Shown in pieces: positions 8,109-63,785 of a DNA stretch of 64,000 bases (positions are counted from its first letter, which is position 1; every line of letters starts with the position of its first letter). The translations under genes and the position numbers were made by a program. Origin of the DNA: Halopelagius longus (lineage in GTDB: Archaea; Halobacteriota; Halobacteria; Halobacteriales; Haloferacaceae); contig NZ_FNKQ01000002.1 of NCBI RefSeq assembly GCF_900100875.1, forward strand, positions 248,001 to 312,000, read 5' to 3'. A model generated the notes under the pieces. It was given only the letters and a program-made list of their open reading frames with translations, was not told the origin of the DNA and ran no database searches.

Positions 8109-9068
8109 GTGCCCCCCGACGACCACACCGTCGACTACGAACTGAGCGACCAAGACGAGAACGTCCACCACGTCTGGGACGACGGCATCGACCCGGCGGT
8201 GACGGTCGAACCCGGCGACGTGGTCCGCTTCGAGTGTCGCGACGCGTTGAACGGGCAGGTCGGCCCCGACGGGACGGTGGAGGACCTCGTGAACGTCGAC
8301 CTCGACCCCGTCCACCCCCTCACCGGCCCCGTGCGCGTCGAGGGCGCGGAACCGGGCGACGTGTTGGCCGTCGAACTCCTCGACTTCGAACACAAAGGGT
8401 GGGGGTTCACCGGCTTTCTGCCCGGCGAGATGGGCCTCGGCCTCCTTCCGGAGGAGTTCGAGGAGGGCGGCCTGCACGTCTGGGAGTTCGACGGCGACAC
8501 CGCGGAGTTCGTAAACGGCATCGAGATTCCGCTGGACCCGTTCCCCGGCATCATCGGCGTCGCGCCCGGCGCGGAGGGCGAACACGACACCCTCCCGCCG
8601 CGCGACGTCGGCGGCAACGTAGACGTAAAGCAGATGACCGCCGGTTCGACGGTGTACCTCCCGGTGGAAGTCGAGGGCGCGTTGTTCTCGACGGGCGACT
8701 GCCACGCCGCGCAGGGCGACGGCGAGGTGTCCGTCACGGGCGTCGAAGCGCCGATGTTCGTCACCGCGCGGTTCGACGTACTGACGGAGAAGTCCATCGA
8801 GCAACCGGAGGTGGAGACGACGGGACCGTTCACGCCGACGGGCGCGGACGAACCGATGTACGCGACGACCGGCATCGCCGACGACCTGATGGCGGCGACG
8901 AAGAAGGCGATACGGCACATGATAAACCACCTCGAAGCCGAACGGGACCTGACGCGCGGGGAGGCGTACATCCTCTGTTCGGCCGCGGTGGACCTCAAGA
9001 TAAGTCAGGTCGTGGACGCGCCCAACTGGACGGTGACGGCGTTTCTCCCCGAGAGCATCTTCCCCTGA
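8109..9068 (+). CDS. Acetamidase/formamidase family protein
   Basis: A 319-residue FmdA/AmdA-type amidase expected to hydrolyse short aliphatic amides to acid and ammonia. Family features include DALNGQVGPDG, the VNPVHPLTGPV-like segment (LDPVHPLTGPVRVEGAEPGDVLAVELLDF), the metal-region GDCHAAQGDGEVSVTGVE, and AYILCSAAVDLKISQVVDAPN near the end. The start is GTG at 8109; a TATA-like CATCTTGATAG about 27-35 bases upstream supports a leaderless mRNA. It is not operonic with gad, since the hairpin cluster lies between them. The physiological substrate is unknown. Confidence 0.88.
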   Translation: MPPDDHTVDYELSDQDENVHHVWDDGIDPAVTVEPGDVVRFECRDALNGQVGPDGTVEDLVNVDLDPVHPLTGPVRVEGAEPGDVLAVELLDFEHKGWGFTGFLPGEMGLGLLPEEFEEGGLHVWEFDGDTAEFVNGIEIPLDPFPGIIGVAPGAEGEHDTLPPRDVGGNVDVKQMTAGSTVYLPVEVEGALFSTGDCHAAQGDGEVSVTGVEAPMFVTARFDVLTEKSIEQPEVETTGPFTPTGADEPMYATTGIADDLMAATKKAIRHMINHLEAERDLTRGEAYILCSAAVDLKISQVVDAPNWTVTAFLPESIFP

Positions 9069-13828: not shown

Positions 13829-15619
13829 ATGTCTCGCAACACCGACGAGGGTGACTCGTCGGGCCACCGGGCTACGTCCGGTGTTGCCCCCGGAGGCGGG
13901 GAGACGGCGGCGTCCGAACGACGCCCCGGACACCGTCGGAGTTCGCTCGTCTACGCCGTCGCCGTTCTCGCCGCGGCGGCCCTCCTCGCGCGCCTCGTCG
14001 GCCTCGGCGCGCGACCGTTCCACTGGGACGAGGCCCGCGTCGGCTACTGGACGCTCAGATACCTCGAAAGCGGCGCGTTCGAGTACCGCCCCGTCGCGGG
14101 CGGACCGCTCCTGTACCTCGTGGACCGCCACGTGTTCGCCCTCCTCGGCGCGTCCGACGCGACGGCGCGACTCCCCGTCGCCGTCCTCGGGGGCCTCCTT
14201 CCGCTCTGCGCCCTGCTCTTTCGGGACCGACTCGACGACGTCGAGACGTTCGTCTTCGCCGCTATCTTGGCGTTCAACCCGCTCTTGGTCTACTACTCGC
14301 GGTTCCTCCGCGGCGACGTTCCGCTTGCGTTCTTCGCCTTGGCGTCCGTCGGGTTCGCGGTGCGGGCGTACGACCGCCGGAGTCGGCGCGACGCGTACGC
14401 CGCCGCGGCGATGGTCCCCCTCGCGGCCGCGTCTTCGGGATTCGCCGCGGGGTACGTCCTCTGTTGGGTCGCCGCGGGCGTCCTCCTCGTCGACCAACCG
14501 AGCGCCGTCGTCGACCGCGGCGCGTCCGCCAAAGCGACCGTCGCAGACGTCTACGCCCGTGTCGCGGGCCGGTGGAACGTCGCCGCGCGCGCGTTCCTCC
14601 TCTCTCTCGGGGTGACCGTCTACTGCTTCGCCCCCCGCGCCGGGCCGACCGTCGAGGCCGGCCTCTGGAAGCCGACGACGTGGCACCTCGTCCTCTGGGA
14701 GGCGACCGGCGGCGCCCTGTGGACGTTCGTCGGCGTCCGGGTGGTGCACCGCTACCCCGACGGCGTCCACGCGATACTCCCGTTCGTCTCCGACACGCTC
14801 GATACGCTCGCCCGGACGAGTCTGCCGATACTGCTCGCGGCCGTCGCGGCGTTCCTCTGGACGCGGTACGCCCGTGGGGACCGACGCCCCCTCGTCGCGG
14901 GGTTCGCCTACTGGGGCGCGGCGGCGGCGTTCGTCTTCCCCGTCGTCACCGAGGTGTCCGCGCCGTGGGTCGCCGTCCACGTCCTCCTGCCCCTGTCGCT
15001 CCCCGGCGCGGTCGGTATCGCCGCCCTGTTGACCCGCGCCCTCGCGGCGGCGAGAGCGACGAACGCCGACGGCGCGCCGTTCGGCGGCGGACTCGCCTCG
15101 GCGGACGCGGCGACGGTGGCCGCGGTGGTCCTCGTCGTCGTCGCCGTCGTCGCGCAGGCGGGCGCGGTGACCGCCGCGGGCGTGTACGGCCCCTCCGACC
15201 GGAACAACCACCTCGCGCAGTACGGGCAACCGAGCGACGACGTCGAACCGTTGGTGGCGAACGTCTCGGGGTTCGCGGACGGCGACAGATCGACGCCCGA
15301 GGTGCTGTACGTCGGGTCCGACTACGCGACGGGGTGGGACCCCGGAAACGAGTTCCCGCCGGTGGTAGACTCGTGGGGTAACAGGCTCCCGCTTCCGTGG
15401 TACTTCGAGCGCGCCGGGTTGGACGAGGCGAGCACGGAGAACGTGACGACGTTCGACGAACGCGCGGACCGCGGGGAGCCGATTCCGCCGGTGGTCGTGA
15501 CGACTCCGGCCCTCCGCGAACAGGTCGAAGAGAGGCTCGGCGACGACTACGAGGCGCGGTCGTACCGACTCGGCCTGTGGGGCCGGGACGTCGTCGTCTT
15601 CGTCGCGCAGTCGGAGTGA
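13829..15619 (+). CDS. Flippase activity-associated protein Agl23 (TIGR03663 family)
   Basis: A 596-residue membrane protein of the dolichyl-phosphate-sugar mannosyltransferase-like clan, linked in haloarchaea to lipid-linked sugar handling in glycosylation. A ~40-residue charged N-terminus precedes many transmembrane helices. The first extracellular loop has the family signature ARPFHWDEARVGYWTLRYLESGAFEYRP and a GGPLLYLVDR segment. A soluble C-terminal ~110 residues follows the last helix. ATG 13829 is the first in frame. Its own reaction is not established; the name rests on the TIGR03663 signature as I recall it. Confidence 0.85.
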   Translation: MSRNTDEGDSSGHRATSGVAPGGGETAASERRPGHRRSSLVYAVAVLAAAALLARLVGLGARPFHWDEARVGYWTLRYLESGAFEYRPVAGGPLLYLVDRHVFALLGASDATARLPVAVLGGLLPLCALLFRDRLDDVETFVFAAILAFNPLLVYYSRFLRGDVPLAFFALASVGFAVRAYDRRSRRDAYAAAAMVPLAAASSGFAAGYVLCWVAAGVLLVDQPSAVVDRGASAKATVADVYARVAGRWNVAARAFLLSLGVTVYCFAPRAGPTVEAGLWKPTTWHLVLWEATGGALWTFVGVRVVHRYPDGVHAILPFVSDTLDTLARTSLPILLAAVAAFLWTRYARGDRRPLVAGFAYWGAAAAFVFPVVTEVSAPWVAVHVLLPLSLPGAVGIAALLTRALAAARATNADGAPFGGGLASADAATVAAVVLVVVAVVAQAGAVTAAGVYGPSDRNNHLAQYGQPSDDVEPLVANVSGFADGDRSTPEVLYVGSDYATGWDPGNEFPPVVDSWGNRLPLPWYFERAGLDEASTENVTTFDERADRGEPIPPVVVTTPALREQVEERLGDDYEARSYRLGLWGRDVVVFVAQSE

Positions 15620-60121: not shown

Positions 60122-60127
60122 GTTTAA
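60122..60127 (+). promoter_or_regulatory. TATA box of tRNA-Arg
   Basis: A TTTAAA at 60122-60127 lies about 30 bases before the tRNA start at 60156. It is the original host promoter, still in place on the left side of the junction. Confidence 0.4.
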
Positions 60128-60155
60128 AAGGAATCGCCCCACTACGTAGTATCGA

Positions 60156-60203
60156 GGGCGCTTAGCTCAGTCTGGACAGAGTGCTTGGCTTCGGACCAAG
60201 TTG
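60156..60203 (+). tRNA. tRNA-Arg(TCG), 5' part, interrupted at the variable loop
   Basis: The acceptor 5' strand GGGCGCT (60156-60162), D-arm (GCTC/GAGT), and anticodon arm CTTGG-CTTCGGA-CCAAG (60184-60200) are intact, with anticodon TCG at 60191-60193. After TTG the sequence departs from any tRNA: no T-arm, no TTCAAATC loop and no complement to the acceptor appear downstream. The element adjoining it carries an integrase, so this is one attachment junction. An intact copy may exist at the far junction, outside the window. Confidence 0.8.
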
Positions 60204-60235
60204 CGGTAGCCTTCTGTGGCTGCTCTGTCCCACCG

Positions 60236-60267
60236 CCGTCTGTCGGTTTTCTGGTTCTCGCAGACGG
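60236..60267 (+). promoter_or_regulatory. Inverted repeat upstream of the integrase gene
   Basis: CCGTCTG (60236-60242) and CAGACGG (60261-60267) are perfect 7-bp arms. It lies between the att junction and the integrase start, a likely place for a recombinase binding site or excision-related regulator site. Confidence 0.35.
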
Positions 60268-60354
60268 AGCAAACGAGCATGTCCGAGGCTATCCAAGTTC
60301 AACTAATCGGTGTATCGTACCGCTGTCTGGCGATTAGGCGGAGGTGTCAGGCTC

Positions 60355-61470
60355 ATGACTGAAATTGAGGCCATTGATGGCATTCCGCTACTTCCTGAGC
60401 CATCTCAAAATCTACTAAACGAACGTCAGCGGGTTGATTACCGTCATCACCGTGAAGGACTGATACGGTGGATGTTGAAGTTAGGAAAGAACCCCGACAG
60501 AGCGGAAGGATACGCACGTCAAACGGCGAAGCGGCGTGCAACAAATGCAGACATGTTCTATCGGTGGGTATGGCAGGAGTACAATGGATACACAACTACA
60601 GTTACTCACGAGTATGCTGATGAGTATACACGAGAGTTAGCATACTCCGACCTCTCAGATACCCACAAGTCGAATCTACAGAAAACGCTTAAGATGCTGT
60701 TTCGGTGGCGGAAATGGGAATTTGGCGATTCTGAGTGGCAACCAGAAATCACATTCAGCGGCCAAGGAAGTGCCTCACAACCACGAGACTACTTTACTCA
60801 AGAGGAACGCAAACGGCTACGAGACGCCGCCCTTGAGTACGGAAGCGTTCCACACTACTGTTCTCTAACGCCAGAACAACGACAGGAATGGAAACGCCAC
60901 TTGGCTCAACGGTTCAGGAAACCTATGCAGGATATTGGACGGGAAGAATTTGAGCGAGCAAATGGATTCAAAGTCCCGTCGTTAGTATGGGTCTCTCTTG
61001 ATGTAGGATTACGTCCCATCGAAGTAGAGAGGGCAAAGGTTAGTTGGTGCGACTATGATAATGCAGTTCTGCGGATACCTGCCAACGATTCTGCTAAGAA
61101 CCACGATAATTGGAGTGTCAGTCTACAATCTCGGACTGCTGAAATTCTACAACGGTGGACGGAAGAGCGGCGTCTATACGACAAATATGGAGAGACAGAT
61201 AGACTCTGGCTTACCCGAGAGGGGAACCCCTACCAGAGTACCGCTCTCAAATATGTACTCGGGAAGCTTACTGACTTAGCAGGAATCGAAACTGAGGACC
61301 GTCAACTGAGTTGGTATGCTATTCGTCACTCTGTAGGGACGTATATGGCGCGAGAGGAAGGTCTTGCAGCCGCTCAAGCTCAATTACGACATCATTCGGT
61401 CCGTACTACGATGAAGTACGACCAAGCACCTGTTGAGGACCGTCGAGACGCCCTTAGTCGAATGGGATAA
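60355..61470 (+). CDS. Tyrosine recombinase (integrase)
   Basis: A 371-residue phage/plasmid-type integrase that most likely inserted the element at the tRNA. N-terminal core-binding domain to about residue 150, then the catalytic part: Arg220 in VGLRPIEVER, Lys248 in SAKNHDNW, Arg324/His325 in WYAIRHSVGT, His346 in RHHSVRTT, and nucleophile Tyr355 in MKYDQ. The box usually written H-x-x-R has Tyr321 in place of the histidine, which I believe is common in haloarchaeal integrases. The ATG at 60355 is the most likely start. Codon use is unlike the left side. Confidence 0.92.
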   Translation: MTEIEAIDGIPLLPEPSQNLLNERQRVDYRHHREGLIRWMLKLGKNPDRAEGYARQTAKRRATNADMFYRWVWQEYNGYTTTVTHEYADEYTRELAYSDLSDTHKSNLQKTLKMLFRWRKWEFGDSEWQPEITFSGQGSASQPRDYFTQEERKRLRDAALEYGSVPHYCSLTPEQRQEWKRHLAQRFRKPMQDIGREEFERANGFKVPSLVWVSLDVGLRPIEVERAKVSWCDYDNAVLRIPANDSAKNHDNWSVSLQSRTAEILQRWTEERRLYDKYGETDRLWLTREGNPYQSTALKYVLGKLTDLAGIETEDRQLSWYAIRHSVGTYMAREEGLAAAQAQLRHHSVRTTMKYDQAPVEDRRDALSRMG

Positions 61471-61557: not shown

Positions 61558-61749
61558 ATGGTAGACATCGTTGAATCATTCGTAGCAGCAATTGTCCTTC
61601 TTGTTGGTCTAATGCTAATGGCTGTCTTCGCAGGGGTAGACCCATCAGTTGCTACAGGATTGTTTGAGGGAGCAGTAAGGGTCGTGGTGGCCGTGTTCTT
61701 TGTTGGGGCTATTGGCCTTGCTATCTTCAGTGCTATAGGAGGCAGATAG
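61558..61749 (+). CDS. 63-residue two-helix membrane protein
   Basis: MVDIVESFVAAIVLLVGLMLMAVFAGVDPSVATG, then a second helix (VVVAVFFVGAIGLAIFSAIGG). Two helices with a short polar loop. An AATATT box lies about 30 bases upstream, so a leaderless start is possible. It sits 6 bases before the next membrane gene in the same direction, so they form an operon. Function unknown; small paired membrane proteins are common in archaeal viruses. Confidence 0.65.
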   Translation: MVDIVESFVAAIVLLVGLMLMAVFAGVDPSVATGLFEGAVRVVVAVFFVGAIGLAIFSAIGGR

Positions 61750-61755
61750 CGGCCG

Positions 61756-62007
61756 ATGTCTAAGCAGTCCCTCTACAGCCAGGTGGTTGAAGAAATGGAA
61801 AAAGACGGGTATCAGTTGACAGAGCAAGCTTTGATACTTGTCTTCGGAGGCGTCTTCGGTGGACAAGCATACAGCATTACACAAGAGGGGTATCCATTAG
61901 TACTGGAGCTGTTCCTCTATCTCTTTATTGTAACAATCGCTCTTATAACGATTGGAGCACTCCATTTTCTAATCAGTTATATTCGACTGTCGGATGCTGC
62001 AGGCTAA
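61756..62007 (+). CDS. 83-residue two-helix membrane protein
   Basis: A cytoplasmic-looking helix (MSKQSLYSQVVEEMEKDGYQLTEQ) is followed by two hydrophobic helices (ALILVFGGVFGGQAYSI and LELFLYLFIVTIALITIGALHFLISYI). It begins 6 bases after the preceding small membrane gene. No recognised family. Element-type codon use. Function unknown. Confidence 0.65.
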   Translation: MSKQSLYSQVVEEMEKDGYQLTEQALILVFGGVFGGQAYSITQEGYPLVLELFLYLFIVTIALITIGALHFLISYIRLSDAAG

Positions 62008-63065: not shown

Positions 63066-63785
63066 TCAGTTTACCTGTTCTTTCACCTGCTTCATACTTG
63101 CGTACCAGTCTACGTCATGACGGTCAGCTATTTCTTTGAACAACGGCTTGTCTCCGTCATGCCGCTCAAATTCTCTTACTTGGATTCGTACCTCATATTC
63201 TTCTGGAGTCTCTATCATCCGATTCTGAGCAACTGCTAAACAACCAAGTGCAAGAGCTATTGGAGCAGAATTCGGTTCCTCGTTATCGTCATCGTCTATG
63301 TTTCCCTTGATATTTCCAAGACGATTGAAAGCGCGAGCATCGACCTTCATAACAAGCCGCTTTGCGTCTCTAACGATAGCATCAGAAAGATTGAGCGTAT
63401 CTCCAAGGGCTTCAGTCAGTGACAGCTTATCCTTAATTGCACTCTTCTTTCCACCGTCTCCGTAGTACCCATGCTGCCACATCCACATCCGCTTCCTCTG
63501 GGCTTTCAAATCTCTTCCATCCATCGCGGTTGTTGGAAGAGGATTTCCATGTGCGTCTTTCCGATTTGCATTGAACGTCGTCTCGCTTGGACGGCGCTTC
63601 CATCCTTGCGACGTTCGACCGCTGATTTCAGGCTCGTCATACCGATGTTTCGGCCTGGTCGCATCGATAAACGCTTCATCAACGCTACCATCGCCTGATG
63701 ATGCTACAACTGGCTGTCCGTCTGCAGTTTTCCCAATCTGTTCACCGACTTCATAGTCATGTCTGTATGTGTTTGTTGTTGACAT
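63066..63785 (-). CDS. Divergent TFB-like protein with one cyclin-like repeat
   Basis: A 239-residue element protein. Residues ~66-104 (RKDAHGNPLPTTAM..., ending RKRMWMWQ) align by eye with the TFB linker [10 protein letters not shown]...RLRKWQ of the chromosomal TFB at 15.8 kb. Residues ~121-239 (LTEALGDTLNLSDAIVRDAKRLV, PIALALGCLAVAQ, FKEIADRHDVDWYASMKQVKEQV) look like a single cyclin fold. The zinc ribbon and the second cyclin repeat are missing. It could alter or replace host promoter recognition. An alternative is another helical DNA-binding protein; the TFB link is by eye only. Confidence 0.55.
   Translation of the reverse strand: MSTTNTYRHDYEVGEQIGKTADGQPVVASSGDGSVDEAFIDATRPKHRYDEPEISGRTSQGWKRRPSETTFNANRKDAHGNPLPTTAMDGRDLKAQRKRMWMWQHGYYGDGGKKSAIKDKLSLTEALGDTLNLSDAIVRDAKRLVMKVDARAFNRLGNIKGNIDDDDNEEPNSAPIALALGCLAVAQNRMIETPEEYEVRIQVREFERHDGDKPLFKEIADRHDVDWYASMKQVKEQVN

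Follow-up and report, generated by a model that had tools for sequence, protein, structure and literature searches.

A tRNA gene cut short beside an integrase gene

In Halopelagius longus, a tRNA-Arg(TCG) gene begins normally and then gives way to AT-rich DNA with an integrase gene, which raises the question of whether the cell has lost this tRNA and, if not, where the rest of the gene lies. The window (the whole 64-kb stretch that was analysed, G000:C2:248001-312000) holds the first base of the tRNA at position 60156, and the match is intact to nucleotide 49 (60204), taking in the acceptor 5′ strand, the D-arm, the whole anticodon stem-loop and some of the variable region. A 20-base D-arm motif occurred once in the 64 kb and was absent from all 100 shuffles. 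The initial annotation, made from the letters alone, had described a 5′ part of tRNA-Arg(TCG) with a TATA box, followed by AT-rich DNA with an integrase, and each of these elements was confirmed (60123-61470). The features of this junction are as follows.

60123-60130, + strand: chromosomal tRNA TATA-like box TTTAAAAG, at -33, which now precedes the 5′ stub and is oriented toward the integrase gene
60153-60204, + strand: attL, the integrase-proximal copy of a 52-bp perfect repeat (tRNA-Arg(TCG) nt -2 to 49)
60156-60204, + strand: 5′ stub of tRNA-Arg(TCG), nt 1-49, not a functional tRNA
60189-60195, + strand: anticodon loop CTTCGGA, tRNA nt 34-40, the probable 7-bp crossover region by comparison within the integrase family
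60355-61470, + strand: tyrosine integrase, 371 amino acids from the ATG, PF00589 (2.7e-13), intact with conserved catalytic residues
60205-64000, no strand: left part of the integrated element, which continues past the window to L004:10873 and is bounded on the right by the complete tRNA (L004:10877-10951)

ARAGORN found no complete tRNA in the window, and the T-arm and acceptor 3′ strand were absent from all of it with up to three mismatches allowed. Taken by itself, the window therefore shows just the 5′ half of the tRNA, as it would if the CGA-decoding tRNA had been lost or if the gene were split by an intron. An intron was excluded because the 3′ part is missing from the window at this tolerance; the initial annotation had named a 3′ part shortly to the right of 60203 as the sign of an intron, and its reading of a foreign insert stands. 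With a complete tRNA-Arg(TCG) lying 8.7 kb away and a window devoid of the 3′ half, disruption of the tRNA by either route is extremely improbable.

The gene is complete at the far end of an ~8.7-kb insertion

Reading the sequence through to the right end of the element, beyond the right edge of the window, we found the missing 3′ part within a complete, ARAGORN-positive tRNA-Arg(TCG) at G000:C2:316876-316950 (L004:10877-10951). Both junctions, seen directly, share a perfect direct repeat of 52 bp (tRNA nt -2 to 49); the partner of attL lies outside the window at L004:10874-10925, a repeat distance of 8,720 bp. The initial annotation had proposed looking here for the 3′ part and a repeated 5′ core, and both are present. 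It had also proposed a genome-wide search, in which the copy at the right junction was the sole complete tRNA-Arg(TCG) found (all but five of the 45 Rfam tRNA hits were re-typed with ARAGORN, and those five did not match the tRNA-Arg(TCG) DNA query). The idea that the cell had lost its only CGA decoder is thereby excluded.

The other genome of the genus that we compared (G001, locus L006) has an empty site, an uninterrupted tRNA-Arg(TCG) recognized by ARAGORN. Alignment of the ubiA-like left flank (86% identity) continues across the tRNA 5′ half into this uninterrupted gene, and L004:660-2204 and L004:10874-10952 both map to a single place in L006. The empty site identifies the element as an insertion of ~8.7 kb. 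Its GC content is 0.456, and that of the two flanks is 0.669 and 0.649 (host ~66%). The locus combines a full tRNA at one end, a fragment at the other, a direct repeat, an empty site in a relative and an intact tyrosine recombinase near one end, all features of a tRNA-integrated element.

Given the perfect repeat, the complete distal tRNA and the empty site, we conclude, with a probability of roughly 0.93, that an ~8.7-kb integrative element used its own tyrosine integrase for site-specific insertion into the single tRNA-Arg(TCG) gene, that its attP carries the 5′ half, and that the gene was rebuilt distally. Both junctions and the distal complete tRNA support the proposal in the initial annotation of a foreign element that encodes an integrase and targets this tRNA in its 5′ half. 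The attP of the element would carry a copy of nt -2 to 49, and the integrase would exchange strands across the 7-bp anticodon loop. After integration, attL would hold the promoter and 5′ half of the chromosomal gene, now a non-functional stub directed toward the integrase gene. At attR, the 5′ half brought by the element would be followed by the 3′ half of the chromosomal gene, so that the tRNA gene there is complete and preceded by element DNA. The predicted excised circle has an attP running from element DNA through GGGCGCTTAG...AAGTTGCGGTAGCC, and the chromosomal gene restored by excision is predicted to read ...TATCGAGGGCGC...AAGTTGCCGTGGG.

Two side observations concern tRNA-Arg genes. 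The same-genus genome has a tRNA-Arg(CCG) with a ~53-bp insert that separates the variable region from the T-arm (L008:1501-1630, G001:C9:36774-36899), which Rfam scores as a 126-nt tRNA at 42.6 bits and ARAGORN misses; the insert could be a non-canonical intron or the gene could be damaged. Downstream of the restored tRNA in H. longus lie degenerate copies of a tRNA-Arg 3′ end (L004:11045-11068 and 13910-13948), and because they flank a large ORF, probably a glycoside hydrolase (L004:11275-13755), they suggest an older 3′-type insertion at the same tRNA.

A cryptic element with an intact integrase

The integrase gene starts ~150 bp from the attL stub. R220, K248, Y321xxR324, H346 and Y355 were invariant in all nine family members aligned, and the protein has YxxR in place of the usual HxxR. 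It is mostly 44-67% identical to its full-length haloarchaeal relatives, and its similarity to the listed haloviruses (HF1-group/HSTV-2) also spans the full length, at 37-45% over 97-98% of the protein. At E <= 1e-30, 88 of the 170 genomes from the host's family contain a member of this integrase family. Six plasmid records carry a relative, the best of them, in Natrinema thermotolerans, being 66% identical and adjoining a complete tRNA-Glu. Among IMG/VR viral contigs there was a single relative, 48% identical, at which we looked for a 5′-type repeat and found none.

The other ORFs of the element in the window are the following.

61558-62007, + strand: two small ORFs of 63 and 83 amino acids, no family above the Pfam cut-off
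63066-63785, - strand: ORF of 239 amino acids that belongs to no known family; among 167 genomes of the host's family, a single weak relative

The element further encodes a 238-amino-acid protein without a family, a GIY-YIG protein and a 309-amino-acid orphan. It also contains a second, short tyrosine recombinase of 204 amino acids that consists of the catalytic domain only (L004:8250-8864). A provirus of a head-tailed halovirus was considered and rejected: the element ORFs searched gave no matches to virion structural genes, and a search of 50,697 phage records with two central ORFs gave no relatives. Defence cargo was likewise rejected, with no PADLOC hits among five ORFs. Cryptic integrative element is the most fitting name for it.

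Relatives of the integrase carry either half of the tRNA

We surveyed ~115 integrase loci with 10-20 kb of flanking sequence where available, some of them duplicates, with one contig present in two collections. Most were of the 3′ type, having a complete tRNA upstream of the integrase gene, typically within 50-360 bp, and a 3′ fragment at the distal end where a distal repeat was found. Nine loci were of the 5′ type, with a 5′ stub adjoining the integrase gene, and eight of these had a complete tRNA at the distal end. They involve tRNA-Arg(TCG) (the Halopelagius element, L083, which is the same as L205, from Halobacteriales archaeon QS_4_69_34, and L223), tRNA-Gly(CCC) (L111 and L156), tRNA-Leu(CAA) (L163 and L164) and tRNA-Glu(CTC) (L171 and L168). 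The anatomy of the Halopelagius element, a stub at the integrase gene and a complete distal tRNA, recurs at L083, L111, L156, L163, L164, L171 and L223; at L168 we found the stub and no distal repeat within the stretch examined. A third set, mostly of tRNA-Ser, has a reversed tRNA-Ser(TGA), complete next to the integrase gene, with a 5′ fragment distally (L099, L142, L143, L149 and L154), and L228 and L229 have tRNA-Ser copies at both element ends.

The integrase closest to that of the window (L082 of Natrinema limicola, 67% identical) belongs to a 3′-type locus; those of L083 (65%) and L111 (64%), also near it, belong to 5′-type loci. On a quick IQ-TREE phylogeny of 77 integrases, the 5′ type requires about six changes, counts that cannot give direction. 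A single origin of the 5′ mode was rejected, as the 5′-type integrases forming one clade had an AU p of 0.005 (on this quick tree, where L156 forms a long branch). Polarity thus appears to have changed repeatedly within one haloarchaeal integrase family. A shared element lineage was also rejected, the 5′-type elements compared having almost only the integrase in common with the Halopelagius element.

Four loci (L145, L146, L228 and L229, at tRNA-His and tRNA-Ser) carry nearly whole tRNA copies, with an ARAGORN-positive tRNA at each end. Separately, several haloarchaeal tRNA genes or element ends are followed by short copies of tRNA 3′ ends, ~100-180 bp apart and with no integrase between them (L099:9385-9674; L115:11281-11656; L111, reverse complement, 8840-8866; L145:14493-14659).

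The strands most likely cross over at the anticodon loop

The initial annotation had placed the interruption at the variable loop, where the repeat does end, but comparison across the integrase family places the crossover at the anticodon loop. At the Halopelagius element alone, any crossover point within the 52 bp of identity (nt -2 to 49) would yield identical junctions, so that the exchange might lie elsewhere in the repeat, in the D-arm or at the border of the anticodon stem and variable loop, with the loop common to all only because both halves reach it; IntSNJ2 and others indeed use different parts of tRNA genes (PMC8371274). The extents of the other repeats make such an exchange unlikely. 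Every 5′-type repeat ends 0-9 nt past the anticodon loop, 3′-type repeats begin 1-27 nt before it with L128 as the sole exception, and the loop lies inside 28 of the 30 mapped repeats (27 of 29 in the main set, plus L223), those of L128 and L154 diverging within it. IntSSV1, moreover, exchanges strands at the anticodon loop, its cuts bordering the loop (PMC8371274). In two free haloviruses whose integrases are related, a tRNA fragment containing the loop lies immediately before the integrase gene: tRNA-Leu 25-85 in HSTV-2 and tRNA-Thr 16-72 in Serpecor1. Because the loop is shared by 28 of 30 repeats, it is the most likely site of crossover, and the simplest reading would be one common cut region, where homology on one side or the other preserves the tRNA.

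The restored tRNA may be transcribed from element DNA

Since the element rebuilds the gene with its own copy of the 5′ half, the DNA upstream of the tRNA belongs to the element. A BRE+TATA model built from 20 host tRNA genes (consensus CGAAACCCTTAAAC around -41) gave these genes leave-one-out scores of -1.7 to 15.4, with a median of about 9. In the -52 to -16 region of the restored tRNA-Arg(TCG) it found no host-type promoter (0.1 bits), and the best candidate, GGAGAGATTTTTAT at -88 to -75, scored 6.2 bits. The initial annotation had considered a complete right-hand copy with an element-supplied promoter: the complete copy is there, but at the canonical distance a host-type promoter is not.

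The low score could mean that the element gives no promoter, that the restored tRNA is silent or weak and that CGA decoding is crippled. We consider this quite improbable: besides the candidate at -88 to -75, one host tRNA gene scores lower than the restored copy in the canonical window, and the region upstream of the left stub, on the host side, itself scores just 0.5 despite its good TATA at -33. Because no other complete tRNA-Arg(TCG) was found, loss of the restored copy would be expected to meet strong selection.

Elsewhere, the repeats of L083 and L156 extend ~50 bp upstream of the tRNA and take in a TATA-like box, and the distal copy of L163 has an element-supplied CGAAAGGGCTTACA at -40 (7.9 bits). 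For the Halopelagius element we infer that the restored tRNA would be expressed from element DNA and that the host tRNA promoter would read into, and drive, the integrase gene.

Discussion

Integration into the 5′ half of a tRNA gene is already known but rare; its occurrence in haloarchaea appears to be new, and the open literature that we searched, which was limited in scope, yielded no report of it there. Among 3,919 islands, Islander has 159 with a 5′ tDNA fragment versus 3,760 with a 3′ fragment (PMC4383910), and the thaumarchaeal survey of Krupovic et al. (2019) includes one case, CalSub-E1 in tRNA-Ser of Ca. C. subterraneum (PMC6563490). These belong to other lineages and are likened to the Halopelagius element by description rather than by sequence.

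Within archaea, pTN3-like integrases have been called unique for their use of the 5′ half (Badel et al., 2021, PMC8371274). The attB of pTN3 of Thermococcus is a tRNA 5′ half (Cossu et al., 2017, PMC5495485; PMC8371274), with 41 bp shared and a minimal site of Leu2-44 that includes the anticodon (PMC5495485; PMC8371274), and integration reconstitutes the full tRNA at a distance from the promoter that it had originally, as in the Halopelagius element. Beyond the difference in host group, Thermococcus versus haloarchaea, the pTN3 integrase is suicidal, its gene being split by integration, whereas that of the Halopelagius element is intact and lies next to attL.

The 3′-type haloarchaeal relatives (Serpecor1/HF1-group viruses and Hdep-prov1, PMC7230728; L082) share with the Halopelagius element a homologous integrase, a tRNA pointing toward it and an anticodon loop inside the repeat. 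Serpecor1/HF1-group viruses have a partial tRNA-Thr adjoining the integrase gene as attP (PMC7230728). In the 3′-type relatives attP carries the 3′ half, and the complete tRNA, still with its own promoter, adjoins the integrase gene; unlike the HF1-group/HSTV-2 family, with its tRNA 3′ half next to the integrase gene, the Halopelagius element has the 5′ half, distally.

The 5′ mode, which accounts for ~4% of mapped Islander islands, thus recurs in haloarchaea with non-suicidal integrases and among 3′-mode relatives, and searches that rely on 3′ fragments would be expected to miss such elements. These loci form a natural series for asking how integrases retain one cut site yet change which flank protects the host gene, and the same series bears on who controls the expression of a single-copy tRNA. 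We tentatively propose, at somewhat less than even confidence, that an integrase family acting at the anticodon loop may have switched repeatedly in the half of the tRNA that it carries, and that carriers of the 5′ half may swap promoters with their host, so that the host promoter would read into the integrase gene and a single-copy tRNA would be transcribed from mobile DNA. If that swap is real, read-through from the host tRNA promoter into the integrase gene would act as a signal of the integration state.
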